IMG/VR virus record: IMGVR_UViG_3300037808_002143
Span: 1 to 42,455 of that record
Source of the DNA: a virus
Length of the DNA: 42,455 nucleotides
Direction: 5' to 3' (one strand)
Shown here: positions 2,721 through 40,001 of the stretch, in pieces
How positions within the stretch are numbered: the stretch's first letter is position 1
How the letters are laid out: each line of letters begins with the position of its first letter
Program-made: the position numbers and the translations under genes
Notes under the pieces: model-generated
What the model was told of the DNA's origin: nothing
Database searches by the model: none
What the model saw: the letters and a program-made list of their open reading frames with translations, nothing else

Positions 2721-3762
2721 ACTATTTTCATTGCTTAAATCATTCGGAATTAGTTGTGACTCCATAGAGATGGAGAGCAGAAAGTTTTTCGACGTATATG
2801 ACTTAAAGCTTTCAAATGGGGTTAGATCCTCTCGAATAGAGAAGGTGCTTGTTGACATTGGGATATCAATGGCCGCCCTATCCAAGCCTATTGGGTATCC
2901 GATTCTAAAAAATGGAGTCTATAGAATAGAGGTGCAGACAAAAGAGTTTGAGTCTCCATCATTATCAAATGTTTGCAGCAGCTTCCCTTCATCTTACTAT
3001 GCCCCTATAGCGATAGGCATGGATGATTCTGGTGAGTATTTTCATACAGATCTAAATAGCATGCCAAATCTTCTAATTGGCGGAGTTCCAGGCTCTGGAA
3101 AGAGCATGCTTCTTCATAGCATGATAATATCTCTAATTAAAACGGGAGTTGACTTACACCTTGTTGACCCGAAAATGGTAGAGTTTGTTCCGTACGAAGG
3201 GATTAGTGGAGTTAGAGGTATTTATAACTCCGTCGAAGATACTGAGATGGCAATAGATATGTTGCGGCAAGAGATGGAGTCAAGGTTTAAGATTTTAAGG
3301 AAAAAATCTTGTAGAAATGTAATAGAGTATAACAAGAAGAATGAGAAGAAAAAGCTAATGCCAATTGTATTAGTAATAGACGAGTGGGCAGATATAGTTT
3401 TGCAATCTTCGGGAGTTCAAAAGCTGCTATGCTCCGTGGCTCAAAAGGGGCGTGCAGCGGGAATATCGATAATCCTAGCAACGCAAAGGCCGTCAGCAAA
3501 GGTTATATCGGGGCTAGTTAAGGCAAACTTTCCAGGCAGAATAGCTCTTCAGGTTGCGTCCGCTACAGACAGTAGAATAATACTTGATTGTAAAGGTGCT
3601 GAAGACTTAATAGAAGTCGGAACGGGATTGTACCTTGATGGAAGGTCGGCAAAGCCAAGAATGTTTAGAGCTCCGTACTTAAGCGATATTGATGAAGAGC
3701 TTTTTAACTTTTCATTAAAAGTAGAAAAGAAAGACTCTTTCTGGAAGAGGGTATTGTTTTAA
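2668..3762 (+). CDS. FtsK/SpoIIIE-like DNA translocase ATPase
   Basis: A 364-residue RecA-fold motor of the FtsK/HerA superfamily. Residues 139-146 are a Walker A (GVPGSGKS) and 234-240 a Walker B with the FtsK-typical acidic pair (VLVIDEWAD). The following block, GRAAGISIILATQRPSA then a VKANFPGRIAL-type segment, is the diagnostic FtsK motor signature. In the family these hexamers pump double-stranded DNA using ATP. The protein lacks the N-terminal membrane segments of cellular FtsK and the C-terminal winged-helix gamma domain that reads KOPS sites, so it is a soluble minimal motor. The 130 residues ahead of the P-loop are unassigned. It lies next to primase-like, Mre11-like and Rad50-like genes, which suggests a role in handling replicating or recombining genomes rather than capsid filling, since a separate terminase is present at 36265. 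Confidence 0.9.
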   Translation: MSNYSEKISLLRPEGGARLFSLLKSFGISCDSIEMESRKFFDVYDLKLSNGVRSSRIEKVLVDIGISMAALSKPIGYPILKNGVYRIEVQTKEFESPSLSNVCSSFPSSYYAPIAIGMDDSGEYFHTDLNSMPNLLIGGVPGSGKSMLLHSMIISLIKTGVDLHLVDPKMVEFVPYEGISGVRGIYNSVEDTEMAIDMLRQEMESRFKILRKKSCRNVIEYNKKNEKKKLMPIVLVIDEWADIVLQSSGVQKLLCSVAQKGRAAGISIILATQRPSAKVISGLVKANFPGRIALQVASATDSRIILDCKGAEDLIEVGTGLYLDGRSAKPRMFRAPYLSDIDEELFNFSLKVEKKDSFWKRVLF

Positions 3763-4295
3763 TGGGATATAGAAAGTCTGACATAGTTAGCGCAGTATCT
3801 ATTGAGAGTGTTGCAGAGCTTCTAAAGATAAGCCTCGAACCGATATCTACTGGTAACTTCACGGCAAGATGTAGATGCCCAGGAATAAATCATAAACATG
3901 GGTCAGAGAGGACGCCTTCTCTTTATCTTGATACAGTTAAGAATAATTATTTTTGCTATGGATGCAGCTCTAGTCATAATCAGATAGATTTTTATATTTT
4001 AGCAACAGGGTGTGACTTTCTAGAGGCTCTAGAAGCATTGGGACCGTTGATCGATCCGAGCAAGGTTGGCGTTCCGTCCGAATCAAAGAAGACAAATTTT
4101 TCTATCCTTATGGATATTTCTAAATATATAAGAGCCATTACATTAAGAAATAGGGACGACATGGATTGGGTAATGAAGCTCCAGAAGAACATAGACAATT
4201 CGATAAGAAAAATAGATAGGCTGGACACGAAAAGAACTAGCTCTCTTCTAAGAGAAGTTAAAAGAGTGTGCAGAGAAAGGTATCATAAGAAATGA
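3762..4295 (+). CDS. DnaG-type CHC2 zinc-finger protein (primase N-terminal half)
   Basis: A 177-residue protein whose first 105 residues match the zinc-binding domain of bacterial DnaG primase. C37/C39 with H44, then E-R-T-P-S-L at 49-54, then the FCYGC knuckle (C65, C68) and an N-Q-I-D-F segment follow the usual order CPFH...EKTPSF...HCFGCG...GNAIDF. In DnaG this domain recognises the template initiation site. The TOPRIM catalytic core is absent; the last 70 residues are a basic helical region. The missing core appears to be the separate gene at 26998. The gene starts at the last base of the FtsK-like gene and overlaps the Mre11-like gene by 4 bp. A stand-alone CHC2 protein with another role is the main alternative. 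Confidence 0.85.
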   Translation: MGYRKSDIVSAVSIESVAELLKISLEPISTGNFTARCRCPGINHKHGSERTPSLYLDTVKNNYFCYGCSSSHNQIDFYILATGCDFLEALEALGPLIDPSKVGVPSESKKTNFSILMDISKYIRAITLRNRDDMDWVMKLQKNIDNSIRKIDRLDTKRTSSLLREVKRVCRERYHKK

Positions 4296-7569: not shown

Positions 7570-7593
7570 TCTATTAATTTAAATATAATCTTT

Positions 7594-8505
7594 ATGGCAA
7601 TTATTATAGAAATATTAGAATCTAAGAATGAGATTATTTCTGGAATTCCAGAAACAGTATCTATAATTCCGATTGATAATGTATTATTTTATTATTCATT
7701 AGATGGTGAGGATCCAGGATTAGAGTCTTTATTGGGTGACGAATTAATATATCTTCCCACAAATGTAGCTTCTATTGAGCTGAGGGTTATTGGATTCTCC
7801 AATGATATTGAGCTAGGAGTAATGATTCCTGTTACGGAAGTTTTTGGAAAAAAATATTATTCAAACCCATACTTGAGTAGTAGGTCTAGGCACAATCATA
7901 GTGATGGGATAATTGTCATCCCATATGGAAAGGATCCGGTTGATAACCTGTCAATGCTTAGTGATGGCAGAAAAGCTCAGGAGAGTGCGATAGAGATGAA
8001 GAATCTTGACATAAAGGCATCTACCAGCTCAAGGTCTGGCGAGAAGATTCCAAATGATTCTTCAATTTCTTTTGTCAAAAAGCCAATTAAGGAAGGTTCA
8101 ATTCTAGATGATCGAAGAAATTCTTCTGTAAATAGTCTTGACTTTAATCCAAAGGCAAGTGTCATAAGTATCGACGGAAGAACTGAGGAGGCTAGGCAGT
8201 CTCAAGTTGTAAAGATCGTCAATCGCAGTTATAATAGTATTGATCCAACTTCAAATTTTTATAGTGAAAATTGGAAAAGAAATGAGCAAGTAATAACTGG
8301 AAATTTAGTTAGAAGTATTTATAATAGCAATACTGGAATAATTGTATTTTATTATTGGGAAAGTAAAGAGTCCAAGTGGCTTACGTCGACTCAAAATATT
8401 GGAGTAAGGGGCTCTTATAACATCTCTGGGATTGCTTCGTCTGGGAGGGGCAATAGGTTTACCTATAGATGGATACAGGAGCGATCATTTACAAGAATAT
8501 TTTAG
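7594..8505 (+). CDS. Protein with chitobiase C-terminal-like beta domain
   Basis: A 303-residue protein. Residues about 18-85 fit the CHB_HEX_C beta-sandwich pattern: a Pro start, then FYYSLDGEDP, then an Ile/Leu-Pro strand and a SIELRVIGF strand. Such domains occur in phage and secreted surface proteins. The middle (about 100-200) is Ser/Asp/Lys-rich and probably unstructured, and the last 100 residues look like a small beta-rich domain ending in aromatic/basic residues. A virion or baseplate component is plausible, although the gene lies between Rad50 and a nuclease. There is no SD before the ATG; a TATAAT sits 4 bp upstream of it. Function is otherwise unknown. Confidence 0.6.
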   Translation: MAIIIEILESKNEIISGIPETVSIIPIDNVLFYYSLDGEDPGLESLLGDELIYLPTNVASIELRVIGFSNDIELGVMIPVTEVFGKKYYSNPYLSSRSRHNHSDGIIVIPYGKDPVDNLSMLSDGRKAQESAIEMKNLDIKASTSSRSGEKIPNDSSISFVKKPIKEGSILDDRRNSSVNSLDFNPKASVISIDGRTEEARQSQVVKIVNRSYNSIDPTSNFYSENWKRNEQVITGNLVRSIYNSNTGIIVFYYWESKESKWLTSTQNIGVRGSYNISGIASSGRGNRFTYRWIQERSFTRIF

Positions 8506-8537: not shown

Positions 8538-9308
8538 ATGTTAAAGTTATCAGTATCCTCGATCGGGACGTTCGAAAAGTGTCCAAAAAAATATCATTTC
8601 AACTATATTGAGAAGCCAAATATAGCAAGACAAAAGCATGACTTTACTGAGTTTGGGTCATGTGCTCATCAAATTTTAGAGAATTTTCATAATTATATTC
8701 TTGATAATCCTGAGTCAAGTGAATCAGAATGGCCAAGAATAATGAAGAACAGCTTTATTGATGGAGTTAAAAAGTTTGATATAAATCTTTTAAGCCTAGA
8801 TACATGGGCCCCAGAGGGAAGCATGCCTGGGATAAAATTACTTAGAAAAATAATGCAAGAATATTTAGACAAGCTTAGGGCAGATGGAATGCCAAATGTA
8901 GTCGGGATAGAAACTTCTTATAATTTCAAGATAAAAGATGGAGCTTACATAAGGGGCTATATAGATAGAATAGATAAAATTGATGATGAAACATATCATG
9001 TTGTGGATTATAAAACATCAAAGTCAACTAAGTACCTAACAAATTTTCAGCTACTAGTATACGCCGAAGCAGTAAGGCGTATATTTCCAGACGCGAAAGT
9101 AGTTCATGGATCGTACAATATGTTGAAGCATGGCTGCAAATTAGTAAGCTGGAAGTTTACAGATATGGATTATAAGGATTGTAAAAGGACTTTGGAAAAA
9201 AGAAGTTTTCAGATCGAAGAGGAAAAGGTGTGGGTGAAGAAACCTTCCATGCTTTGCCAGTGGTGTGATTTTAGAAGTATATGTCAAGACTCATGGTCGG
9301 AGGAATAA
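8538..9308 (+). CDS. Cas4/RecB-like PD-(D/E)XK nuclease with Fe-S-type cysteines
   Basis: A 256-residue single-domain nuclease of the Cas4/AddB/RecB-nuclease family. The core motifs are a GYIDRID strand with the first acidic residue and VVDYKTSK (the D-x-K signature), followed by a QLLVYAEA helix with the family's conserved Gln and Tyr. Four cysteines, C15 near the N-terminus and C240, C243 and C249 at the C-terminus (LCQWCDFRSIC), match the 4Fe-4S staple of Cas4 and AddB. Related enzymes are 5'-3' DNA exonucleases. An SD (AGGA) lies 8 nt before ATG. With Mre11/Rad50 upstream and no cas genes in the window, recombination or end resection is more likely than CRISPR adaptation. Confidence 0.88.
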   Translation: MLKLSVSSIGTFEKCPKKYHFNYIEKPNIARQKHDFTEFGSCAHQILENFHNYILDNPESSESEWPRIMKNSFIDGVKKFDINLLSLDTWAPEGSMPGIKLLRKIMQEYLDKLRADGMPNVVGIETSYNFKIKDGAYIRGYIDRIDKIDDETYHVVDYKTSKSTKYLTNFQLLVYAEAVRRIFPDAKVVHGSYNMLKHGCKLVSWKFTDMDYKDCKRTLEKRSFQIEEEKVWVKKPSMLCQWCDFRSICQDSWSEE

Positions 9309-9311
9309 GTA

Positions 9312-10076
9312 TTGAGAAATTATAAGGGTGAAGTGTGCATGTATGATGAGAAGATATACATAAACACAAGGACGGGAGAAGGAGTTGGTCGTGTGATAAA
9401 AAAGATTACACCGCTTATAGATGGCATGGCTGCGAGATCACATATATCTGGGTATTCATTTGATGATATCAGGCAGGAAATATGTCTTCTCGTTGTCGAT
9501 GGTGTTAAGAAATATGATCCTGACAGAGAGGTTAAGCTTAGCACATTTCTTCATTGGCATTTAAAAAATAAGTTTATAACCAAACTTAAAAGCCTTAATA
9601 CGATGGCTAACGATGCGACTTCAACAAAAGATGAGAAGATAGAAGGCTGCCCATGCGGAGGCGATATAGAGAGAGACCTAGTTAAGGATGCGTTTGTATG
9701 CTCTTCTTGCAAAAAGATTCACAAGGCCGTCTATAGGTCATCTAGAAGAGAGCTTATTTTCTCCGAGATGAAGCTGGGTACCAATAGTGATGATGATGGC
9801 GGCGATTATATAAGCTATGTATCTACTGATGACTCCGTCTTTCCTTCTGGATATGGAAATATAGCTAGTCTTGAAACAAAGATATTTTTTGAGAAGCTAG
9901 AGGCAGTTCTCGATGATAAGACGGCAAAGATTCTAAGAAAATTTTGCATAGAAGGAACTACAATGCAGGAGGCAGCAAGGTCTGTTGGAATGACTGGATG
10001 GGCTGCAAGCGTAAGATTAAAGAGGATAAGAAAGAATCCATTAGCTAAAAAGATAATTTCAGCAACACTTGGTTAG
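9312..10076 (+). CDS. Sigma-70-family factor with inserted zinc ribbon
   Basis: A 254-residue protein. Residues about 25-95 resemble sigma region 2: a DDIRQEICLLVVDGVKKYDP helix followed by STFLHWHLKNKFI, the polymerase-binding and -10-recognising part. Residues about 195-245 resemble region 4 (VLDDKTAKILRKF, then an HTH with TMQEAARSVGMTGWAASVRLKRI). Between them C113-x-C115 and C130-x-x-C133 form a compact zinc ribbon, which ordinary sigma factors lack. The likely job is to redirect host RNA polymerase to phage promoters, as T4 gp55 does. The start chosen is TTG 9312 because GGAGG lies 8 nt upstream; an ATG at 9339 is an alternative. Confidence 0.8.
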   Translation: MRNYKGEVCMYDEKIYINTRTGEGVGRVIKKITPLIDGMAARSHISGYSFDDIRQEICLLVVDGVKKYDPDREVKLSTFLHWHLKNKFITKLKSLNTMANDATSTKDEKIEGCPCGGDIERDLVKDAFVCSSCKKIHKAVYRSSRRELIFSEMKLGTNSDDDGGDYISYVSTDDSVFPSGYGNIASLETKIFFEKLEAVLDDKTAKILRKFCIEGTTMQEAARSVGMTGWAASVRLKRIRKNPLAKKIISATLG

Positions 10077-11033: not shown

Positions 11034-11104
11034 TCTATTAATTTATACTATATTTAATAGAAATGTGTTAGTTTTTTCGTATGACACTTAAAGGGTAAGT
11101 ATAC

Positions 11105-14100
11105 ATGGTATTCTTGGGCAAAGAGCGGCAGGTTAAACGATTTTTAAGAGGCAGGGTAGAGCAAGGCGACTTTGCTCTTGTAATTGGAGACTTGAGGCTC
11201 TTGGCGGAAGCCCCCAATGATTCAGAAAATCTCCTTGACATGAAAGATAAGTACTTTAGCCCAGAAGTTCTTTTGGGGCTAATTAGCTATGCAGGTGGAG
11301 TTGATGCTTTGTTCTCCTCTGATATTAATAGCCTAGCAGATTACTTGGAGGGGCTTTATACGGAAGGGAATAATACTCTCGAACCTTCTGGAAGCAAGCT
11401 GCCTCAATATGAAGAAGTCTCCAATGCGTCAATAATTAGCCTGAATACTGCAGAGTCAGCATTTAGGACATGGGCACCATTATTGGTTGATGTCCACGAG
11501 ATTGTCGATGAAGAATATGAAGATGAGTTTTTGACGGTACCATCAGGAAGGTATTCTGAAGATGGGTCAGAGCTATTAAGGGATGACGAGGATCTTGGCG
11601 ATATAGATGATGATCGGGATCTTGTAGAATTTGACGAAGAGAATGATTCAGAAGGTGGTGGTGATACTCTGGCGAATCCTGCTTATGATGTTGAAAAAAT
11701 CCCTATAAATAGTAAGCTTATTTATAATATTTTGGAGCATGAATTTGAGATACCTGAGGATATTATAGATAGTAGTTTGGATGATATCTTTGATGCGCTC
11801 TTGGGGTTACAGGAGGCTATCGTATCTCATTACAATGCACTTAGCAAAGATGTTTCGGCTTATCCATCAGATGAGATTTTAAAAGAGGATGAATTCTTAA
11901 GAAATATATTAAGGAAAGCTTTGGGCGAGGCAACGTCGACTCCTGACTCTGTCCGTAGAGAGCCTGAGGCAACTCGGGATAGTTCAACCAACTTAACGGG
12001 GACTTCCCGGTCGGAAAAATCCGAATCTATTCCAAGTGGAACGACTTTGGAATTCCCTATCAAAAGTGATGATGCTCCTATTAGTGATAACGATAATGCG
12101 CATGGATCGAGCCCCAATAAGTTATGGGCAGCCTCATCAAGTAAGGTAATGATAGATCTAAATATTTCAGAAGAAGAAGAAGCTCTAATAAATGAGAAGA
12201 GCCCAAATCAGCTTGGCGAATTTGATGCCGGTGGTATCACTGGGCTTTCATATGTTGATTTGCAAAGAGATTCTCTAAGGGTGACGAAAGAAAAGTTTGA
12301 TAATAACGAGTTGGCACAATTTTCTTTATCAAAAAAGATTGAGCTAGAGCAGCCTGATGGAGGGTATGACGGTATAAACAAAAGCTTGATTCACCCAATA
12401 TTTAAAAAAACATCTGAATTATTTTCCTGTATTTCAATATTTGAAATTAACAATGACGCAATACCCTCGCTAAGAGATGATGCTGTTGAATTAACTGATT
12501 ACCTTGAGCTAGAGATTAAAGGCTTATTGGAAGGTTTGTTAAAAGGATTATCTGGCAGAATTTCAAACACAGCTCGTGGAGCAAAGGAGTTTGAGATAAG
12601 GGTTGAAAAAGTAAATATCGCTGTTGGGAACGCAATAGAGGCTGCTAAAGTTTGGGACGGCTTTAATGATTTGGAGTCAAGTAGGTTTGATATTAAAATT
12701 CCAGAAAATACAAAATTAGTAAGGAGGATGCAGGAGGGATCAGATATATTTTCTTTGCTAGTAAAAGTTGTAAAAGATGGCTCTCTAATCCACTATACTG
12801 GAGTTAAGGTTGGGAGTATTATAAAGAATAAGGCAATCAGCTTAGGAGGTAATATTGATGATGCAGAGGCTAAATTGGACGAGGCATTTAAGGTCACTCT
12901 AGATGCTCAGATTTGCTCCTTCTTAAGAAAGTCTTTGGACGTACGAAGCCATAGGGAATGGTCCTCTCCATTTATAACTATTCAGGCGGCGGTAGGTATC
13001 TCGTTAGGCCCAATACTGCAAGACGCAACTAAAAAAATAAGCAATCCATTTTCTGGAGCTTATTATATAAGCTGCCCAGTTTGCAGCAAGAACATAAGAT
13101 ATAAAAACTTTAGCAGCAAGGGCGGAGAGAAGAAGAGAGATAAGCATGACTATAAGATTAGAGAGTATTCGCTAGTTAGGGCTGGCCGACAGGAATCTAG
13201 AGGCGGAGTTACTGTTCAGCATCCAGGTGGTATAATATCAGCCCAAGACTTAGGCGATCATATTGGCGTACCAATAGATGGAGAGTTAATAGGATGGCAG
13301 AGAGCAAAGGATCTTATGGCCTTGCCAAATAGCTCTGACCAAGAAAAGGGGAATAGGGCTAGAAATCTAATTCTAAAAAGCTTAGGCGGCAAACCATTGT
13401 TTAGTGCTGATAGGTATATCTCCAGCACTAAATTCGCATGTCCAATGGAGGATTATTTAATTCCAGATGGATCAAGTGCTTCAAGAGATTGCGGGTTTTC
13501 TATAGACGTTGATAGCGTAAGAGGCGCTGAGTCAATCGGGATAGAGGGAGTGAGCTCTAGGTTCCAGTCCAGTTTTGCTAGTTCGAGTGAGTCTGAGGAT
13601 ATTTTTGAGAAAATAAATAAATCTGATATTTTAGAGGATAAGAAAAATATACTAAAAGATTATATTTCGAGAAAGAGATCTGGCGGATGGAACTTCTCAA
13701 ATACTCAATTTGCATGTCCATGCCATATTTCTCCAGAATCTTTTTCAGAAGATGACGTAAGTGACTTTAGAGAGAAGTATAAAAATGCACGATTGTTAAT
13801 CCCTCATATTGGATTCGCAAAATTAAATAATCTTGAATCTAGCAGTATCCTTCAAGATACTTCTAGTAACAATAGCTTAAAGTGGATTTATCAACCGCCT
13901 ACAACTGCAGATGGCCAAAATAAATTTTTTAGTGAGGGTTCTTCTGGATATATTGTATGCGGAGTATCAACATCAATATCATCATTCGTCAGAGATAAGA
14001 ATAGCGAATTATCCATAACATCACTGATAAAGAGAGCTGTAGATGCGGGTGGCCCGAACGCAGCCGAAGATATAATTGAGACGCTATTGAGGCTTGGCAT

Positions 14101-17100
14101 AGACATTGAGGACGTCATAGGGGCAGACTCACTATTTGAAGAGGATCTAGATAAGGCCGGAAGAATAAATGTATTATCTAGAATTATGAAATCAGCAATG
14201 GCCGTAAATATAGGCGGTAATAATCGTGAGCTTGACATTATTAATGATCTTGGGCTGACATGTGGAAACGGCCATACATTTACGATTGGGCAGTCCGTAA
14301 GGGTTGGGCAGACCCACGCAGGAACGTCGGCCAGGGGAGACTTGCTGAGTCAGGATGGAATCTTTGGCAAATCTGGAATAGATAATTTTAAATATATTAG
14401 CGAAAAGTACTTTAGACCAGTTACGTCTACGGAAGAGATGAGTTCGTTAAATAGTATTATTGACACAGGGAGTTCATATCCTGGGTTTGAGCTTAGTGAA
14501 ATTAAATTCTCCAGCCCAACAAATCCTGACGAAATGTTATCATTTTCAAGATCAAATAGGTCAAAATTAAGAAGAAAAGATTTTGTTACAACTACAGTTA
14601 GGGATGGTTCTTCAGTATATAGCTATGATCCATTACAGAGAGAGGATCGTGAATCTATTTCTAGAGAATTTACGGCCTCATATAGTGATGTTGATGCTGG
14701 TGACATTGCTGCGGAAAATTCTTTGCCGACTGAAAATATTTCCGCAGCGTATAGTCTAGACGCCAGAGGAGTTGTAGAGAAGATATTTGAGATGTTGAGC
14801 GGAGCGCTTGATACTGTAATGTCACTTAGCAAAACCTCGCAATCACTAGATATTGAGACGGTACTGCTTAATGATGAGAAAGAGTGCTGCGACGATAATA
14901 TTTCCAAGGAGATAAAGAATATATTTTCATCTCTATTTAGAAGCCTAGGCGCTACAGATGGAAACATAGATCGATTATTTTTAGACATAGATGAAGGGTT
15001 AATAGATCGACTTAAAGGGCAGAAAATATCTTCAATAAGAGGTTACGGAAGATCCGGAATAGAAGCCGCATTAACAAGAATAGTAGTTGAAAATTTGGAG
15101 CTACAATTTATAGAGACTATTGACGCAAAGACGATGAATGAGGCTAGAGATCTAGTCTCAAAATCTGTAGATATGCTGATTCCACGAGGCTATGAATATG
15201 GAGATCTTTTTCCAGATAATCCTGGATCAAGCAAGAAGATAATATTAAGAAGAAGAGCGGAGCATGTTGGTCGACAAATAATGGGTGGGTCTGCCATTTA
15301 TTTTGCAGATGTAATTGTAAACATATTTAGAGATAGATTCAGCAAGAATTTGTCATCAACAATGTTTTCAGGCTTAAATATTGACATCGATTTATCCAGC
15401 AGAGAAAGCATTCTTGAGCTAGACTTTTCTAAAATAGAGAAACTAAGAAGTATAGATTATTTGGAAATTGCTTCTGAAGAATTTGAGAAAAATAATGGTG
15501 ATATAAACAGGCTAAGAGATAGTTATGTTGATTCCAGAGGAGTGATTAGAAGGGAGTTAATTAGATTTCGTGGCCTAGTTACTACTCAGAAATATATGGA
15601 GCTTGGAGCTGGAGTTGCTTCAAAAGGCGTCGAAAAGGCCCTTGAGCTAGAGAGCAATGAAACAGTAGATAATATAAAAAAATATATCTTTGGTAAAGAT
15701 AAAATTATAAACATTTCGCTAAACTCTAGCGAGAAGCATTTTTCAGGCGCTAGACCTGGCGAGTTTGTCGGAGGCTATGCGGCTCCAGTCTTTGTCTCTA
15801 AGAATAGAGCTGCAGAATCAGATATAATTCATGCACTGTCTGATGGAAATAATTTTTATGGAATGTTAACAGAAGATGAGAATAATCACTTTAAGAATAG
15901 TGGTTATTCGAGAGATTACATGCTAGGATTAGTACGGGGCAATATACCATTCGGATGCGAAGAACTTCCGACTAATACATTCTCTCAGCTAATAGGTAGA
16001 CTTGACGGAAGCATGTGGAGGCCATGCCTTGTAAGTAGAGCGATGGATGGAAAGCCTCCCTATAAGCTTAGTAAAAATTATAAATTAAGCATATTAAATC
16101 ATCCCAATACCAAGATGGTAAGTGTTGACGGTGGAGACGTACATTATGAAAATATTGATTTAAACCTAAACACATCGGAAGGATTACAGCTCGGGCAGCA
16201 AGTCTCTTCAACGTCTGATCGGGGTACGAATAAACTCTATCCGCCCAGCCCATATGCCATTACTGGAATTGGGATTCCGTTGCCATTCGACTACTCTGGC
16301 TCTTATGATAGGAAATCTGGAGCATTTCAGATTCCGCATCTATATACTGATCAGGAAGAGTATGGAGACTATAAGGATGGGAAGTATAAGATCCCAATTC
16401 AAGAATGTAAAGCGCCAGTTGATATTGGGCTATCTAGTGGTCCAATAAATGCTGCGGACTTCATGAAGAGGTCCCCAAAGTATGCTATCTCAATCTTTAA
16501 TGAAATAGATGAAATCTATAATGAATCAATAAAAGCCTCGTCAAGCCTAGAGGGAGAAGAGGCAAGGACTATTATAGATAATGCGAAGAGAAGGGTTCGA
16601 CAATTGCACGATAAGTATAGAAATTTACCATTTGAGATTGAATCTGGAAAAAATAGATCCGGCGTAGCTCCAGTGGGCGGAATGAGAAATGTGGGCGGTC
16701 TTTATATATCAATGTGGGATTATGCAACGATGTATAAGATGGCGACTTGGCCGGCATATTCGATAGAGTGGGGCGGGCCAGGCAGATATTCCGACCCAGA
16801 GGGGTTAGGAAAGATAATTGGATTTATATCAAATCTTTATAACGTTCAATCAATAGCAGATGCTTTGGGGAAAAAGACAAAGCAAGAGTATACCATAGAG
16901 GACGTTCTAAGCGGTGCAAGAAAAGGGTTTGACGAAGAAATAAAGTTTGCATCTGGATTGACAAATAATATTTCAAGATTCTATTCCATAAACCCATACG
17001 GAGATGATTCTGACGCGAGCATAATGGTTTACGCGGACTGGGATTATCCTGGCTCGGCCAGTGGAGGTAAGTTTGATCTTAACTCCTCATCATACTCAGA

Positions 17101-17455
17101 CAGACTATCTAAATTGGAGAGAGTGAGGAGCACCGAAGAGTCTGATAGACTTTCTCCCTCCGATATAGCAACTATGAGGGGCTTTTATGGGAAGGCTGGC
17201 GGTCCTGATAGTGGAGTTCAATTTGGACCATATGGAGAGACGAAAGCTTCTGACTCAACCCTTAGTATTTATGCGTTTACCGCTAGATTGCGTGACTTTA
17301 TATCTAGCTTCGCGCTAGGATCTTCGGCGGAGAAAAAGGAATCTGCCATTAATGGTAATTCGAAATTTTTATCGAAAATTTCAGAGAGAAAAGACGGGCT
17401 AAGGCGTATAATATTTATGTCAGAAGTCGAGTCGCTTCTGGATGAAATAAAGTAA
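11105..17455 (+). CDS. Giant 2116-residue protein with cysteine clusters
   Basis: The largest gene of the window, about 15% of its length. ATG follows an AAGGG motif. Residues 1-400 are very acidic and low-complexity in places (runs of Asp/Glu near 130-190; Ser/Thr/Pro-rich near 270-350). Residues 650-1060 contain cysteine clusters: C657-x-x-C660, C779, C796, C871-x-C873 followed by His, C952, and C1053-G-N-G-H. Two of these have nearly the same setting (STKFACPM and NTQFACPCH), suggesting repeated metal-binding units. The C-terminal 900 residues alternate helical and Gly/Tyr/Pro-rich segments. I see no ATPase, polymerase or protease motif, no DFDGD, no long coiled coil as in a tape measure, and no membrane segment. 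A large virion-internal, DNA-binding or structural protein is possible; function is unknown. Confidence 0.85.
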   Translation: MVFLGKERQVKRFLRGRVEQGDFALVIGDLRLLAEAPNDSENLLDMKDKYFSPEVLLGLISYAGGVDALFSSDINSLADYLEGLYTEGNNTLEPSGSKLPQYEEVSNASIISLNTAESAFRTWAPLLVDVHEIVDEEYEDEFLTVPSGRYSEDGSELLRDDEDLGDIDDDRDLVEFDEENDSEGGGDTLANPAYDVEKIPINSKLIYNILEHEFEIPEDIIDSSLDDIFDALLGLQEAIVSHYNALSKDVSAYPSDEILKEDEFLRNILRKALGEATSTPDSVRREPEATRDSSTNLTGTSRSEKSESIPSGTTLEFPIKSDDAPISDNDNAHGSSPNKLWAASSSKVMIDLNISEEEEALINEKSPNQLGEFDAGGITGLSYVDLQRDSLRVTKEKFDNNELAQFSLSKKIELEQPDGGYDGINKSLIHPIFKKTSELFSCISIFEINNDAIPSLRDDAVELTDYLELEIKGLLEGLLKGLSGRISNTARGAKEFEIRVEKVNIAVGNAIEAAKVWDGFNDLESSRFDIKIPENTKLVRRMQEGSDIFSLLVKVVKDGSLIHYTGVKVGSIIKNKAISLGGNIDDAEAKLDEAFKVTLDAQICSFLRKSLDVRSHREWSSPFITIQAAVGISLGPILQDATKKISNPFSGAYYISCPVCSKNIRYKNFSSKGGEKKRDKHDYKIREYSLVRAGRQESRGGVTVQHPGGIISAQDLGDHIGVPIDGELIGWQRAKDLMALPNSSDQEKGNRARNLILKSLGGKPLFSADRYISSTKFACPMEDYLIPDGSSASRDCGFSIDVDSVRGAESIGIEGVSSRFQSSFASSSESEDIFEKINKSDILEDKKNILKDYISRKRSGGWNFSNTQFACPCHISPESFSEDDVSDFREKYKNARLLIPHIGFAKLNNLESSSILQDTSSNNSLKWIYQPPTTADGQNKFFSEGSSGYIVCGVSTSISSFVRDKNSELSITSLIKRAVDAGGPNAAEDIIETLLRLGIDIEDVIGADSLFEEDLDKAGRINVLSRIMKSAMAVNIGGNNRELDIINDLGLTCGNGHTFTIGQSVRVGQTHAGTSARGDLLSQDGIFGKSGIDNFKYISEKYFRPVTSTEEMSSLNSIIDTGSSYPGFELSEIKFSSPTNPDEMLSFSRSNRSKLRRKDFVTTTVRDGSSVYSYDPLQREDRESISREFTASYSDVDAGDIAAENSLPTENISAAYSLDARGVVEKIFEMLSGALDTVMSLSKTSQSLDIETVLLNDEKECCDDNISKEIKNIFSSLFRSLGATDGNIDRLFLDIDEGLIDRLKGQKISSIRGYGRSGIEAALTRIVVENLELQFIETIDAKTMNEARDLVSKSVDMLIPRGYEYGDLFPDNPGSSKKIILRRRAEHVGRQIMGGSAIYFADVIVNIFRDRFSKNLSSTMFSGLNIDIDLSSRESILELDFSKIEKLRSIDYLEIASEEFEKNNGDINRLRDSYVDSRGVIRRELIRFRGLVTTQKYMELGAGVASKGVEKALELESNETVDNIKKYIFGKDKIINISLNSSEKHFSGARPGEFVGGYAAPVFVSKNRAAESDIIHALSDGNNFYGMLTEDENNHFKNSGYSRDYMLGLVRGNIPFGCEELPTNTFSQLIGRLDGSMWRPCLVSRAMDGKPPYKLSKNYKLSILNHPNTKMVSVDGGDVHYENIDLNLNTSEGLQLGQQVSSTSDRGTNKLYPPSPYAITGIGIPLPFDYSGSYDRKSGAFQIPHLYTDQEEYGDYKDGKYKIPIQECKAPVDIGLSSGPINAADFMKRSPKYAISIFNEIDEIYNESIKASSSLEGEEARTIIDNAKRRVRQLHDKYRNLPFEIESGKNRSGVAPVGGMRNVGGLYISMWDYATMYKMATWPAYSIEWGGPGRYSDPEGLGKIIGFISNLYNVQSIADALGKKTKQEYTIEDVLSGARKGFDEEIKFASGLTNNISRFYSINPYGDDSDASIMVYADWDYPGSASGGKFDLNSSSYSDRLSKLERVRSTEESDRLSPSDIATMRGFYGKAGGPDSGVQFGPYGETKASDSTLSIYAFTARLRDFISSFALGSSAEKKESAINGNSKFLSKISERKDGLRRIIFMSEVESLLDEIK

Positions 17456-23278: not shown

Positions 23279-23860
23279 ATGAAAAAAGTTTTATCACTAG
23301 ATATTAGCTCGTCTACAATCGGGTGGAGCGTAATAGGCATTTCTATCGACGAGACTATAAAGTTATATGACTTTGGGCATATCAAGCCTCCTAGTAAGGC
23401 TATGGCTGAAAAAAAATCTTTTGGACTTAGCTATAGGCTTTCTGAAATTTCAAGATTGGCAAAAGGCCTACTTGAAGAAAATACTCCAGATGTTGTTATT
23501 GTAGAGGACTATGCTAAAAAATTTTCAAGAGGCAAAAGCTCTGCAAATACTATAATAATTTTAGCAACAGTGAATGAGATAGTTTCACTAGAGTGCTTTA
23601 ACCTTCTCGGCAAAGAGGTGGTAAGACTTCCTGTATCAAGAATTAGAAAGATATTAAGAGATAGGTATGACTCGCCAATAAAAGATAAGGATGATGTATT
23701 GAATCTTATGGATAAGTTATTTGAAAATTTTAATACAAAATTAAATAGAGCAGGAAATATAAAGAAAGAATGCTATGATGAGGCAGACGCATTGGCTGTA
23801 GGTCTCGCATTCTGCATTGACGAACTGAAAGGTAAGGAACTAATTATATGTCGAAAATAA
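23279..23860 (+). CDS. ruvC: RuvC-like Holliday junction resolvase
   Basis: A 193-residue RNase H-fold nuclease. The acidic catalytic residues are in the expected places: D8 in VLSLDISSSTIGW, an acidic residue in VVIVEDYAKKFS, and an Asp pair in CYDEADALAVGLAF. RuvC-type enzymes cut Holliday junctions symmetrically; in phages they resolve recombination intermediates or debranch DNA before packaging. The protein is a little longer than E. coli RuvC (173). It opens the operon that continues with groEL and recA, its 3' end overlapping groEL by 13 bp. It lacks an SD and is probably read from a leaderless transcript. Confidence 0.88.
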   Translation: MKKVLSLDISSSTIGWSVIGISIDETIKLYDFGHIKPPSKAMAEKKSFGLSYRLSEISRLAKGLLEENTPDVVIVEDYAKKFSRGKSSANTIIILATVNEIVSLECFNLLGKEVVRLPVSRIRKILRDRYDSPIKDKDDVLNLMDKLFENFNTKLNRAGNIKKECYDEADALAVGLAFCIDELKGKELIICRK

Positions 23861-25488
23861 TTATAAAAAATTTAAGCGCTAGAGAGAAGATAGTCGGGGG
23901 AGTCTCCAAACTTGCAGATGCAGTCTCTGCAACGATGGGTCCTCAGGGGAAAAATGTTATTATCGGGAAATTTGTTGGAGCTCCAGTAATTACTAAGGAT
24001 GGAGTTTCTGTTGCGAGAGAGATCGTTCTAGATGATGCTCTGGAGGACCTCGCTTGCCAACTGGTAAAGGAGGTTGCAGGAAGAACTGCTGATATAGCTG
24101 GAGATGGAACAACTACAGCAACGGTTCTTGTCGATGAGATGGTAAGAAGGGGCTCCGAGTTGATGGATACTGGATATAGCCCACTCAAGTTTAAAGAAGG
24201 GCTTAGCTGGACTCTCGACAAGATAGTTGGTGAATTGAATGAATTATCAAAGCCAGTTGAAAACTTTGGAACCCTCAAGTCTGTTGCCTCAATATCTTCA
24301 AATAATGATTTTGAAATGGGAGGAAGTATAGCGGATGCTTTTGAGCTAGTTGGGTTTAACGGAACTGTTTCTGCAGAGGCATCTCCTGGGGCGGGATACT
24401 CAGTTAGAGAGATCGACGGAATTGAGCTTAAGAGCGGATATATAAGCCCTTCGTTCTTAGAGGAGGGTAAATCGTCCATAGTGATGGAGAAGTCTAGCGT
24501 TTTAATTTTGAATGAAAAGTTAACTCACTTAAACGAATGTCTTCCAATGCTTAATGAGTTATCAAATAATAATAATCCGATTTTAATAATTGCGAAGTCA
24601 GTAAAGCAAGAGGCTCTAAATACACTTGTCGCAAATAATAACATCGGAAGATTAAGAGTTGCTGCTGTTGAAATACCAACCTTCGGTAAAAATCAGGACG
24701 AGTGGTTGGACGATTTATCAATATTGCTTGGAACAAAAATAGTCGGAAATAATGGGGTGAGACTGAGGGATATATCTATTGATGACTTAGGTTTCGCATC
24801 AAAAATAATTGTTGGTAAGCATTCAACCAGGATTCTTGAAGGATCTACTCTTCAGGCCAAAAAGAGCGCTAAATTATCTCAGTATAAGCAGGATTCTGAG
24901 ATTCTGATATCAGAGTCTGATAGAAAAGATATAGAGAGCAGAATATCCTTTCTCAATGGAAGGGCAGCAGTAATAACTGTCGGCTATTCTACCGAGCTTG
25001 AGCTGAGAGAGAAGGGGGATAGAATTGATGATGCTTTGTCGGCAACAAGAGCGGCAATTGATGAGGGCTATATTGCGGGCGGAGGAGTAACTCTTGCTAA
25101 GATTGCAAACTCAATAGACCTAACGAGCTTGAGCGAGGATCTGCATCCTGCTGCGAACGTTATTCTTGGAGCATGCTTTAGGCCTATAACTCAAATATTA
25201 TCTAATGGATTCTTGGACCCTACTGAAATAATAGCTAAAATTTTAAGCTCAAAGGATGTTGATTTTGGATATAATGCTGCCACGAATAAGTACGGAGATA
25301 TGATTGGGTTTGGAGTGCTTGATCCAAAGAAGGTTACGAGGGTTGCTTTGCAAAATGCGGCAAGTATAGCTCTTCTTCTTCTAAACACTGATGTGATGAT
25401 TGCGGAAAAACCAGAAGACCCATCATCATGGCAGCCTCCAGCTGGGTGGAGGCCTCCGGCTAAAAATAATTTGAACCACAAGTATTAA
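23848..25488 (+). CDS. groEL: GroEL-type chaperonin (Hsp60)
   Basis: A 546-residue group I chaperonin, full family length. Diagnostic segments are present: a GPQGKNVII strand, VITKDGVSVAREI (with the D52 equivalent), AGDGTTTATVL (D87 equivalent), DDALSATRAAIDEGYIAGGG (D398 equivalent) and GVLDPKKVTRVALQNAAS. It should form ATP-driven folding rings. The usual Gly-Gly-Met tail is missing; the end instead has two W-(Q/R)-P-P-A units followed by a polar KNNLNHKY. No groES-like gene is seen in the window, so it may use host GroES or work without one, as reported for the chaperonin of phage EL. The gene lies inside a recombination operon, overlapping ruvC. Confidence 0.97.
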   Translation: MSKIIIKNLSAREKIVGGVSKLADAVSATMGPQGKNVIIGKFVGAPVITKDGVSVAREIVLDDALEDLACQLVKEVAGRTADIAGDGTTTATVLVDEMVRRGSELMDTGYSPLKFKEGLSWTLDKIVGELNELSKPVENFGTLKSVASISSNNDFEMGGSIADAFELVGFNGTVSAEASPGAGYSVREIDGIELKSGYISPSFLEEGKSSIVMEKSSVLILNEKLTHLNECLPMLNELSNNNNPILIIAKSVKQEALNTLVANNNIGRLRVAAVEIPTFGKNQDEWLDDLSILLGTKIVGNNGVRLRDISIDDLGFASKIIVGKHSTRILEGSTLQAKKSAKLSQYKQDSEILISESDRKDIESRISFLNGRAAVITVGYSTELELREKGDRIDDALSATRAAIDEGYIAGGGVTLAKIANSIDLTSLSEDLHPAANVILGACFRPITQILSNGFLDPTEIIAKILSSKDVDFGYNAATNKYGDMIGFGVLDPKKVTRVALQNAASIALLLLNTDVMIAEKPEDPSSWQPPAGWRPPAKNNLNHKY

Positions 25489-26648: not shown

Positions 26649-27011
26649 ATGCTAGTAAAATGTAATATTGGATGCAGGCAGAACGGCGGGATGACCGACG
26701 CCTCGCTTGATGTAAGGACAGATTCCGCAATATGTAATGACTGCGGGGATGACCTTATAGATATATCGAGCTATACGAAGGCCTCTATGAAGATGGTTGG
26801 AGATATAGTCAGAAGGAAGAATAGGAAGGCGTTCACGTTTTCTTGCGAAGAGTGCGGAGAGATGGTCGAGGTGAGCATGGTGGGTGCCGAGATTGTCGGA
26901 GCAGAATGTGATAAAGAAAATTATAATTGTAAGTTTTCAATCACAAGCAATATGATAAACGCGATAAAAATAGTTAAGGGAGAGGAGCAAATAGAGGATG
27001 ATAGTGAATAG
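26649..27011 (+). CDS. Double zinc-ribbon protein
   Basis: A 120-residue protein with two four-cysteine ribbons: C5, C9, C29-x-x-C32 and C66-x-x-C69, C87, C94. Between them is a basic helix (KMVGDIVRRKNRK). The C-terminal tail is acidic. It sits between recA and the TOPRIM primase gene, overlapping the latter by 14 bp, and is likely a nucleic-acid-binding accessory of recombination, priming or transcription. No family name can be assigned from the sequence alone. Confidence 0.75.
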   Translation: MLVKCNIGCRQNGGMTDASLDVRTDSAICNDCGDDLIDISSYTKASMKMVGDIVRRKNRKAFTFSCEECGEMVEVSMVGAEIVGAECDKENYNCKFSITSNMINAIKIVKGEEQIEDDSE

Positions 27012-27765
27012 TATAGATGATACAGCCGCATTAAATATGCTTGCGGAAATTTGCCACTCAAATTTAAAAAACTCAAAAGATTTAAATGATTATTTAAGCT
27101 CTAGCAGAGGATTATCTAGCGATATAATAAGCAAGTATAGGATTGGCTTTTTCCCGCAAAATTTAAAAAAACTAACGAGCTTTATTCCCGAATCTTTACT
27201 GCTAAGACTAAACATCGCAGAGACTCCTTATCGCAGTCAGTTCTCAGATTATTTTTCATTAATATTCCCAATATACTCTGAACATGGGGATGCTATAGGC
27301 ATAAGCGGAAGAACACTATTATCGGATATTGAAAGAAGAAGTATTGGCATTCCAAAGTATAAGAATAGCTCATATAAGAAGGCGGAGATTCTTTATGGAT
27401 TAAAAGAGGCTTCTGAGGAGATTATAGATTCACAAAATGCTTATGTAGTCGAAGGATACTTCGATAAAATAGCAATGGATTATGCGGGAGTAAATAATGC
27501 AGTAGCAATTTGCGGTACTGCGTTTTCTCAGAAGCACTTTCTAAAGCTGGCAAGATATACAGATAAGATAACTTTTATATTAGACTCTGATGACGCCGGC
27601 TTAAAGTCTATGCAAAGAATTTATGAAAAATATATAAACAGAGGAATTAAAATGAGATTTTTAAGAATTCCATCGCCATTTAAAGACGTGGATGAATTCT
27701 TTAGAGAAAAATCATTGATTGATTTCGAAAAAGAGTTTAAACAAATAATCCCAGGAGTATGGTAG
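26998..27765 (+). CDS. dnaG: DnaG-type primase catalytic (TOPRIM) subunit
   Basis: A 255-residue protein matching the catalytic core of bacterial primase without its zinc finger or helicase-binding tail. It has an N-terminal TOPRIM_N-like region with LIFPIYSEHGDAIGISGR and PKYKNS, then the TOPRIM motifs VEGYFDKIAMD (catalytic Glu), ILDSDDAGLKSM (D-x-D) and FKDVDEFF. The CHC2 finger that DnaG needs for template recognition is in the separate gene at 3762. It would synthesise RNA primers for the phage polymerase. The ATG follows GAGG too closely; a GTG at 27004 has better SD spacing. It is in the recA operon. Confidence 0.88.
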   Translation: MIVNSIDDTAALNMLAEICHSNLKNSKDLNDYLSSSRGLSSDIISKYRIGFFPQNLKKLTSFIPESLLLRLNIAETPYRSQFSDYFSLIFPIYSEHGDAIGISGRTLLSDIERRSIGIPKYKNSSYKKAEILYGLKEASEEIIDSQNAYVVEGYFDKIAMDYAGVNNAVAICGTAFSQKHFLKLARYTDKITFILDSDDAGLKSMQRIYEKYINRGIKMRFLRIPSPFKDVDEFFREKSLIDFEKEFKQIIPGVW

Positions 27766-28208: not shown

Positions 28209-28348
28209 ATTCTATTAATAACATTGAGAACTAGTAGTAAACTATTATTTGTTATTCTTATTTTTCTGCTAATTGATTGATATAAATCAAAGAATAATAT
28301 AAGTTTAAAAAATTTTATTTTTATAAAGAATATGGAGCACTATATAGC
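28209..28348 (+). promoter_or_regulatory. Module boundary: weak terminator and late-promoter-like region
   Basis: A 140-bp gap between replication and virion genes. First comes a weak interrupted hairpin (AATAAC 28217-28222 with GTTATT 28251-28256, and an inner TAGTAG/CTATTA stem) followed by a T-rich run, a possible terminator. Then an inverted repeat TTGATT-N6-AATCAA (28273-28290) encloses TATAAATC (28281-28288), one base off the T4 late -10 box TATAAATA. TTGATT with TAATAT 16 bp downstream is an alternative sigma-70 pair. Confidence 0.4.
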
Positions 28349-34145: not shown

Positions 34146-34184
34146 TCAAAAATAAATGCGTCTACTAATAGGCAGTTATAATAT

Positions 34185-34589
34185 ATGATTAGAGGAAGAG
34201 CAAAAAAATGTCCATTTGGACTTGATATTCCAGAGGGCTGTAGGTGTGCCGGCAGTGCTGTTAATATGATGACTCAAGTGGATAACCTTAAGGGTGATGA
34301 CGCAATAATGGCTGTTGATGAAAATTATGATATTATGCTATCAATAGAGGAGCCTGATAGCTGTATACATGCAGACGTAATCATTGATGAGAAAGAGATC
34401 GTTGAGTGTAAGTTTGACGAAGATCGCAAGATGGCTCCAGCAGGGACAATGGGATTGAATGGATCTCCTCATTATCCACATATTTTTTCTGGAAACGCGC
34501 CAAAAGTAGATAGTGCGTTCCCAGTAAAGAATTATGTTGATGATAATTATAATAATAATGCTTATTATGGTCTTTTTTCATACCTATAA
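34185..34589 (+). CDS. Small Cys-rich CPFG-motif protein
   Basis: A 134-residue protein whose N-terminus has KKCPFGLDIPEGCRCAG (C9, C19, C21), a short metal-knuckle-like motif seen in uncharacterised phage proteins; further cysteines (PDSCIHAD, VECKFDE) could complete a zinc site. The C-terminus is Asn/Tyr-rich and flexible. No clear SD precedes the ATG; TATAAT sits 2 bp upstream of it. Probable virion or assembly protein; no function is known. Confidence 0.55.
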   Translation: MIRGRAKKCPFGLDIPEGCRCAGSAVNMMTQVDNLKGDDAIMAVDENYDIMLSIEEPDSCIHADVIIDEKEIVECKFDEDRKMAPAGTMGLNGSPHYPHIFSGNAPKVDSAFPVKNYVDDNYNNNAYYGLFSYL

Positions 34590-39707: not shown

Positions 39708-39764
39708 TATTCCTATTAATTATTAATATTCATTTGATAACTTTGCATTTCAAAGGAACTTTAA

Positions 39765-40001
39765 ATGAGTATTAAAATTATTGACAGACTTAATAAAATA
39801 GCAAGCTCAGCAGGGACGACCCCAGTTTATGAAACGGTTGATCCGGACGGAAATAAAGTTACATTTACGCCGGCATCATTGGTCGCCTCGGGCGGGAAGG
39901 CGAGATCAAAGTCTGGTAAGCCATTTCGCGTAAGAAAGTGGAAGGGCAAATCATTGGCCGGGAGAGTTTCTGGAAAAGATTTTGGAAAAGTAAAGAAGTA
40001 G
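39765..40001 (+). CDS. Small basic protein
   Basis: A 78-residue protein with an amphipathic leader (SIKIIDRLNKIASSAG) and a C-terminal half that is very rich in Lys, Arg, Gly and Ser (KARSKSGKPFRVRKWKGKSL). Net charge is strongly positive, which suggests binding to DNA or to an acidic protein partner in the head. It is preceded by AAAGGA. A 57-bp gap separates it from the portal gene. No family is recognised. Confidence 0.6.
   Translation: MSIKIIDRLNKIASSAGTTPVYETVDPDGNKVTFTPASLVASGGKARSKSGKPFRVRKWKGKSLAGRVSGKDFGKVKK

Follow-up and report, generated by a model that had tools for sequence, protein, structure and literature searches.

A sigma-70-family protein with a zinc-ribbon-type insertion between regions 2 and 4, and a promoter-like motif shared by its phage relatives

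The open reading frame at 9312-10076 of the window, by which we mean the whole 42,455-nucleotide stretch of virus DNA analysed here, encodes a sigma-70-family protein. Computational comparison with nine relatives argued that this phage sigma carries a real insertion of the zinc-ribbon type, conserved and removable, and suggested that a short intergenic motif, CTATTAAT, is probably the DNA signal read by the ribbon-bearing sigma. The phages that encode these proteins are a little-known group of bacterial viruses.

Results

Domain layout of the sigma factor

The gene and its parts were delimited as follows.

9312..10076, + strand: sigma-70-family protein with an inserted zinc ribbon, 254 aa, TTG start
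9299..9303, + strand: GGAGG ribosome-binding site, ending 8 nt before the sigma TTG (sequence)
9324..9365, + strand: N-terminal beta hairpin, residues 5-18, preceding a conserved T-x-[ST]-G-x-G motif (model, alignments)
9384..9620, + strand: sigma region 2, residues 25-103 (Pfam, 32-94; VIA-align to 8vjl_B)
9648..9710, + strand: predicted zinc-ribbon knuckles C113-x-C115-G...C130-x2-C133 with hairpin 119-122/127-130 (sequence, alignment, model)
9729..9869, + strand: acidic linker, residues 140-186, mostly unstructured (pLDDT <50 at 140-182; net charge)
9870..10073, + strand: sigma region 4-like helix-turn-helix domain, residues 187-254 (VIA-align to 3vfz_A)

The TTG start aligned with the ATG of the L102 homologue ((TTG)RNYKGEV versus MKNFEGVV). 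Pfam Sigma70_r2 matched residues 32-94 with an E value of 8.4e-10, above the curated cut-off, and was matched in all ten family members at E<=1; for region 4, Sigma70_r4_2 was matched in four of the ten, with a best E of 0.014. No Pfam region 3 match was present among the 24 families listed for the ten members, and according to Pfam and the model the place of region 3 in the window sigma is occupied by the ribbon and the disordered linker. Region 4 without region 3 is the layout of group 4 (ECF) sigma factors. The window sigma also matched the PHROG sigma families 351 and 1740, both of which were matched by all ten members at E<=1. The phrog_1740 match extended over window residues 26-242 (217 residues) for 153 profile positions, a spread that would fit an inserted segment of about 64 residues. 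The linker bears a net charge of -4 to -9 over 150-186 in every member, and this acidic segment resembles the region 3.2 or ECF linker, which threads toward the polymerase active site.

Cysteines are found at positions 9, 58, 113, 115, 130, 133 and 212 of the window sigma. The preliminary description had proposed a zinc ribbon between regions 2 and 4, formed by C113-x-C115 and C130-x2-C133 (TTG numbering) at the place where other sigma factors have region 3 or a linker. The cysteines lie exactly at these positions, the C4 pattern falls between sigma-2 and sigma-4 in both sequence and model, and the ribbon follows sigma-2 and precedes the disordered acidic linker. Of the features of the ribbon class, the paired cysteine knuckles were present in the sequences of nine of the ten members and the beta hairpin that joins them in the model, and the four cysteines constitute a predicted zinc site.

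The structure of the window sigma was modelled with AlphaFold2 from the 10-sequence alignment, which replaced a model made from four sequences (pLDDT 59.4). The mean pLDDT was 69.6, which is only moderate, and the ribbon, including its strands at 119-122 and 127-130, reached about 70. The model comprises a hairpin (5-18), sigma-2 helices (25-102), a disordered segment (140-182) and sigma-4 helices (184-253), and no region 3 fold was found in it. The top PDB rows returned by Foldseek were sigma factors, sigma-containing complexes and integrative models (best E 4.5e-5), and VIA-align superimposed sigma-2 on pro-sigmaK (8vjl_B; Z 8.7, rmsd 3.2, 90 residues) and sigma-4 on region 4 of SigD (3vfz_A; Z 8.4, rmsd 2.0, 62 residues). 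The fold-search rows listed contained no ribbon folds, which carries no weight either way. Since the model has both the sigma-2 and the sigma-4 fold, the identification as a sigma factor stands against the reading of a protein without a sigma-2 fold.

Relatives and gene order

The family set comprised ten sigma proteins from ten contigs (the window, L001, L019, L051, L098, L102, L103, L110, L113 and L114), the nine relatives all being located in environmental phage contigs. L001, at 83% identity, was the closest relative in IMG/VR. L019 was retrieved by a DNA pattern for the sigma motif and the ribbon cysteines, L051 via conserved N-terminal peptides, and L098, L102, L103, L110, L113 and L114 by a pattern without any cysteine position. 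Pairwise identity between the group of the window, L001, L102 and L103 and the other six was 21-31%.

Gene order was compared as far as each stretch reaches, L019 starting after SbcC and some flanking genes being unmatched in some of the contigs. The order common to the ten contigs is FtsK-like, primase zinc domain, SbcD, SbcC, 303-aa protein, exonuclease and sigma, with a PolIII-type polymerase and further genes downstream. For the gene that follows sigma, orthologues were matched in just two of the nine contigs, L001 and L102. In each of the ten contigs the gene of the 303-aa protein (7594-8505 in the window) immediately precedes the exonuclease and sigma genes, and its product gave no Pfam match at E<=0.01 and no PHROG match at E<=1.

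A genome pattern scan returned 36 stretches and no sigma family member. Scans for the sigma motif combined with CxCG or CxxCG and CxxC returned 15 and 26 stretches, most of which were out of frame or closed; the in-frame open matches belonged either to the family (L010, L019 and L002, the last being the window) or to unrelated proteins, some of them terminase-like. These cysteine-pattern scans demanded GAT-CC and an R two residues on and therefore missed other members, so that the rarity of ribbon sigmas outside the family is not established by them. Searches of named phages with tblastn gave weak sigma matches only (best E 0.1 with the window sigma, 0.2 with L051 and 0.04 with L019). Among the candidates set aside, L052 and L053 had a short motif match only, the fecal-phage records L003 and L004 encode sigmas that, read by eye, have no ribbon, and Andromeda, GBK1 and Lannister, which are relatives by terminase or polymerase, likewise encode sigmas without one. 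One profile search of the ten records detected no second full sigma copy and one weak partial match, in G003; because the contigs may be fragments, these phages may possess another sigma.

Conservation and natural absence of the ribbon

The pattern C-x-C-G-x(13-17)-C-x2-C was present in nine of the ten members, among them five of the six retrieved by the cysteine-free pattern. In the alignment, C113, C115, C130 and C133 were each kept in 9/10 homologues and in both main lineages, and the other cysteines of the window protein were kept in one (C9), two (C58) and six (C212) of the ten; the L019 sigma has a total of four cysteines, all in the ribbon. A C-x(1,2)-C-x(8,25)-C-x2-C pattern arose in 0.18% of shuffles of the window sigma. 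Between the window and L001, the ribbon (C113-C133) is 71% identical and sigma-2 92%, and the basic stretch 134-155 after the ribbon is 95% identical; several short segments of the sigma comparison gave dS values that were saturated or could not be defined. Across the family the ribbon loop is 13-17 residues long and the net charge of the ribbon ranges from -3 to +6. This variation in loop length, sequence and net charge argues against a conserved DNA-binding face of the ribbon.

The L103 sigma has no ribbon. Its sequence contains a clean in-frame gap, with ATLSKDQKFA followed by REIAFSK in continuous DNA, and its gene sits in the same locus as the ribbon-bearing orthologues. The existence of this ribbon-free orthologue indicates that the ribbon is dispensable for this type of sigma. 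In a tree built from concatenated SbcD, SbcC, 303-aa protein, exonuclease and polymerase sequences, L103 took an intermediate position between the window group and the remaining six, and the longest internal branch split the six from the window, L001, L102 and L103. Midpoint rooting would therefore give one ribbon loss in L103, and a root on the L103 branch would instead allow one gain. The ribbon pattern was found in none of 14 other phage sigmas (eight gp55s, S-B68, Andromeda, GBK1, Lannister, phiEco32 gp36 and 7-11 gp47).

A promoter-like motif in intergenic DNA

Intergenic 8-mers were counted in 14 stretches (384 kb, ten contigs, 113 intergenic regions). The most enriched was CTATTAAT, which occurred in 17 of the 113 regions against 0.65 expected, with no copy of its reverse complement. 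Because the CTATTAAT sites of the window duplicate those of L001, the window was left out of a further count, in which the motif occurred in 13 of 99 regions; 300 dinucleotide shuffles gave a mean of 0.70 and a maximum of 4, and no G/C-containing 8-mer rose above 7 in them. The variant CTACTAAT behaved like CTATTAAT (5/113 regions, reverse 0). The sites in the window are the following.

7571..7578, + strand: CTATTAAT promoter-like motif, just after the SbcC stop and upstream of 7594, the exonuclease and sigma
11035..11042, + strand: CTATTAAT motif, upstream of the 2116-aa gene at 11105
28212..28219, + strand: CTATTAAT motif, upstream of 28349 at the start of the late/packaging module
34162..34169, + strand: CTACTAAT variant motif, 23 nt before the gene at 34185
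39713..39720, + strand: CTATTAAT motif, upstream of the gene at 39765

The four + strand CTATTAAT copies are all intergenic in a window of which noncoding DNA makes up about 2%, and L001 has each of them at the orthologous position. In seven of the nine SbcC-holding contigs (the window, L001, L051, L103, L110, L113 and L114) the motif closely follows SbcC, ahead of the genes leading to sigma, and the exact motif is absent after SbcC in L098 and L102. In L103 the copy, at 7936, coincides in part with a terminator-like hairpin and could be a chance occurrence.

The region 28209-28348 had been suggested as a promoter region for this sigma, and one copy of the family-wide promoter-like motif is indeed located there, at 28212. 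The motif precedes the orthologue of 28349, a module with terminase and portal downstream, at the same place in the window, L001, L019 and L103, and L051 has CTATCAAT there. The motif also precedes HU-like, kinase-like and RuvC-like genes (identities from reading translations). A late role had been proposed at the outset; a strictly late one is doubtful given the presence of the motif ahead of the kinase-like and HU-like genes, and 'middle and late' is safer than 'late' because the genes preceded by the motif are varied. Identity between the window and L001 is about 90% along the entire 140-nt noncoding stretch at 28220-28348, compared with 76% for the surrounding aligned block, and this DNA may hold further regulatory elements.

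No conserved -35 element was visible upstream of the CTATTAAT/CTACTAAT sites. With the count limited to sites that have 28 bases upstream in the contig, TTGAC was found upstream of 0/21 evaluable CTAYTAAT sites versus 6/16 GTATAAT sites. GTATAAT constitutes a second motif class, present in 16 regions against 1.94 expected, and its TTGAC-paired sites include those ahead of the SSB orthologue in L019, L051, L113 and L114; in sequence, GTATAAT with TTGAC upstream resembles host sigma-70 promoters. One GTATAAT is located 13 nt before the gene at 23279, where it follows the inverted repeat AAAGCGCATATA...TATATGCGCTTTTTTT of the AT-rich intergenic segment 23190-23278, which is terminator-like and conserved in L001.

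Comparison with known systems

The nearest sequence families to the window sigma are the phage sigmas of PHROG 351 and PHROG 1740 (e.g. S-B68 and Andromeda gp44), and the ribbon is absent in the three members S-B68, Andromeda and GBK1. Like the window sigma, phiEco32 gp36 and 7-11 gp47 are small phage sigmas, and these known ones redirect host polymerase to middle/late promoters. In the available sections of one report, gp36 is described as using a single-element promoter, tAATGTAtA, without a -35 and as having no region-4 homology, and the gp47 promoter is given as GTAAtg-(16)-aCTA (PMC8948821). Neither protein has the ribbon, and their promoter sequences and phage group differ from those of the window. 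phiEco32 gp36 is the closest functional analogue, and the link between CTAYTAAT and the window sigma is a putative one.

T4 gp55 shares with the window sigma the SbcCD (46/47) neighbourhood and would share a single -10-like element, and it showed a weak profile similarity to the ribbon-sigma family in sigma-2 only (probability 83%, 65 columns). In contrast to the window sigma, however, none of eight gp55s has the ribbon. The gp55 family, phrog_234, was not among the seven PHROG families matched by the window sigma at E<=1 and was absent among the 25 of 33 PHROG families listed for the ten members. As far as the accessible text of one paper goes, gp55 uses TATAAATA late promoters with gp33 and gp45, and the late element of Aeh1 is CTAAATA (PMC1524935). 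The family motif CTATTAAT differs from both, and the T4-like TATAAATA was not enriched, occurring in three regions forward and three reverse among the 113.

In the parts available of a study of CorE-like ECF sigmas, the activity of CorE and CorE2 depends on a CXC motif located in the linker between sigma2 and sigma4, and these sigmas also need a C-terminal cysteine-rich domain (PMC8999054). Such a domain is absent in the window sigma, which has no cysteine after residue 212, and its C-x-C is half of a ribbon. TFIIB and TFB have an N-terminal zinc ribbon that docks on polymerase. They resemble the window sigma in being initiation factors with a zinc ribbon, but the position of the ribbon and the remaining fold differ, and the sole TFIIB-like hint in sequence was a match of one family member to Zn_Ribbon_TF at E 0.76.

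Among the literature matches listed, which consisted of titles and abstract openings and included few subscription journals, no sigma with a ribbon between regions 2 and 4 was found, nor was a sigma with an inner ribbon found in the available portion of a jumbo-phage survey that covers stand-alone primase ribbons and sigma types (PMC7824862).

Discussion

The best explanation, which we consider reasonably probable, is that the phage sigma acts with the host core at a single-element promoter and that the ribbon is a replacement for region 3. The protein, built from an N-terminal hairpin, sigma-2, a C4 zinc ribbon, an acidic disordered linker and sigma-4, would bind the host RNA polymerase core and bring it to the phage's own promoters. 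These promoters would consist of one element, TCTAYTAATW, which sigma-2 would recognise at -10, and the TTGAC...TATAAT promoters upstream of some other genes would be left to the host sigma. In other sigmas, region 3 makes contacts with the extended -10 element and with polymerase. The ribbon would replace it at the end of the region-2.4 helix and, because this is the region 3 position, we propose that it most likely serves as a structural brace and as an auxiliary contact, either to DNA just upstream of the -10 or to the polymerase clamp. The promoter sequence would be read by another part of the protein, since the ribbonless L103 keeps the motif, and the ribbon is therefore probably not the promoter reader. 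As the motif lies just upstream of the sigma operon, positive autoregulation of that operon is predicted. The retention of sigma-4, although no -35 element was seen, counts against the single-element reading of the promoter.

An insertion that is neutral or serves structure alone, contributing nothing to the choice or activation of promoters, would agree with the absence of the ribbon from the L103 orthologue and with the variable sequence and length of the loop; we find this doubtful, however, as the ribbon cysteines are invariant in 9/9 ribbon-bearing members across lineages that are 21-31% identical, and the basic stretch 134-155 is preserved so closely. Variable loops would also suit partner-specific contacts, as expected if the ribbon docked a phage coactivator or replication protein and coupled late transcription to replication in the manner of T4 gp33/gp45, and the sigma gene is indeed in a replication/recombination cluster next to SbcCD, as gp55 is near 46/47. 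Such docking appears unlikely, given that no sliding clamp or gp33 was detected among the PHROG-scanned window proteins (part of the proteins were scanned) and that the gene after sigma has so few matched orthologues (L001 and L102 of nine contigs). A metal or redox sensor that switches the sigma on and off, as in the CorE-like ECF sigmas, would account for a C-x-C at the same place as the essential linker CXC of CorE and CorE2 in the available part of that study (PMC8999054). We regard it as very unlikely, because the cysteine-rich C-terminal extension is absent (the last window cysteine is 212, and the four of L019 are all in the ribbon), the ribbon of the family is complete, with both knuckles and a predicted hairpin, and L103 keeps the locus although it lacks the entire ribbon.

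The motif itself might be a different signal, such as an RNA element, an origin or the site of another factor. It often directly follows a stop codon, and the promoter role of CTAYTAAT is read from sequence. This alternative is also questionable, since CTAYTAAT is strand-specific, with no reverse copies in noncoding DNA, is positioned upstream at about 10 to 170 nt from gene starts, distances too variable for a ribosome-binding signal, and recurs in distant contigs at matching positions ahead of orthologous genes.

The favoured explanation, a ribbon that stands in for region 3 in a sigma acting with the host core, can be extended to a more specific proposal that we hold to be unlikely. The ribbon would be a gained-and-lost promoter-opening module that replaces region 3, docks on the clamp or on DNA upstream of the -10, in a way loosely comparable to the TFIIB ribbon on its polymerase, and makes strong use of promoters that have no -35; the sigma, the single-element TCTAYTAATW promoter and a self-amplifying operon would together form a phage transcription switch with a new domain architecture.

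Archaeal and eukaryotic initiation factors use zinc ribbons, and to our knowledge bacterial sigmas as a rule have none between their core domains. The ribbon at the region 3 place, the ribbon-free L103 protein and the shared candidate motif thus form a compact natural experiment that bears on region 3 function, on the opening of single-element promoters and on changes in sigma architecture. For this uncultured phage group, whose genes include GroEL, trigger-factor-like, SbcCD and PolIII-type ones, they also provide a map of regulation that can be tested.

Other features of the window and its relatives

The 2116-aa protein encoded at 11105-17455, whose gene is preceded by CTATTAAT, had counterparts in L001 and L102 alone among the stretches that were compared and gave no PHROG or Pfam match at E<=0.01. 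A zinc-domain gene (3762-4295) and a catalytic-domain gene (26998-27765), about 22 kb apart, matched different parts of phrog_6444, and the primase thus appears to be split into two genes; stand-alone primase ribbons are known in jumbo phages from the available portion of the survey (PMC7824862). A phage-encoded GroEL is present at 23848-25488 (phrog_5725, E 1e-134) and also in L103. Reading of translations identified trigger-factor-like proteins just 3' of the gene after sigma in two relatives (L051:5495-6808 and L019:7239-8504) and a DnaJ-like gene in L019.
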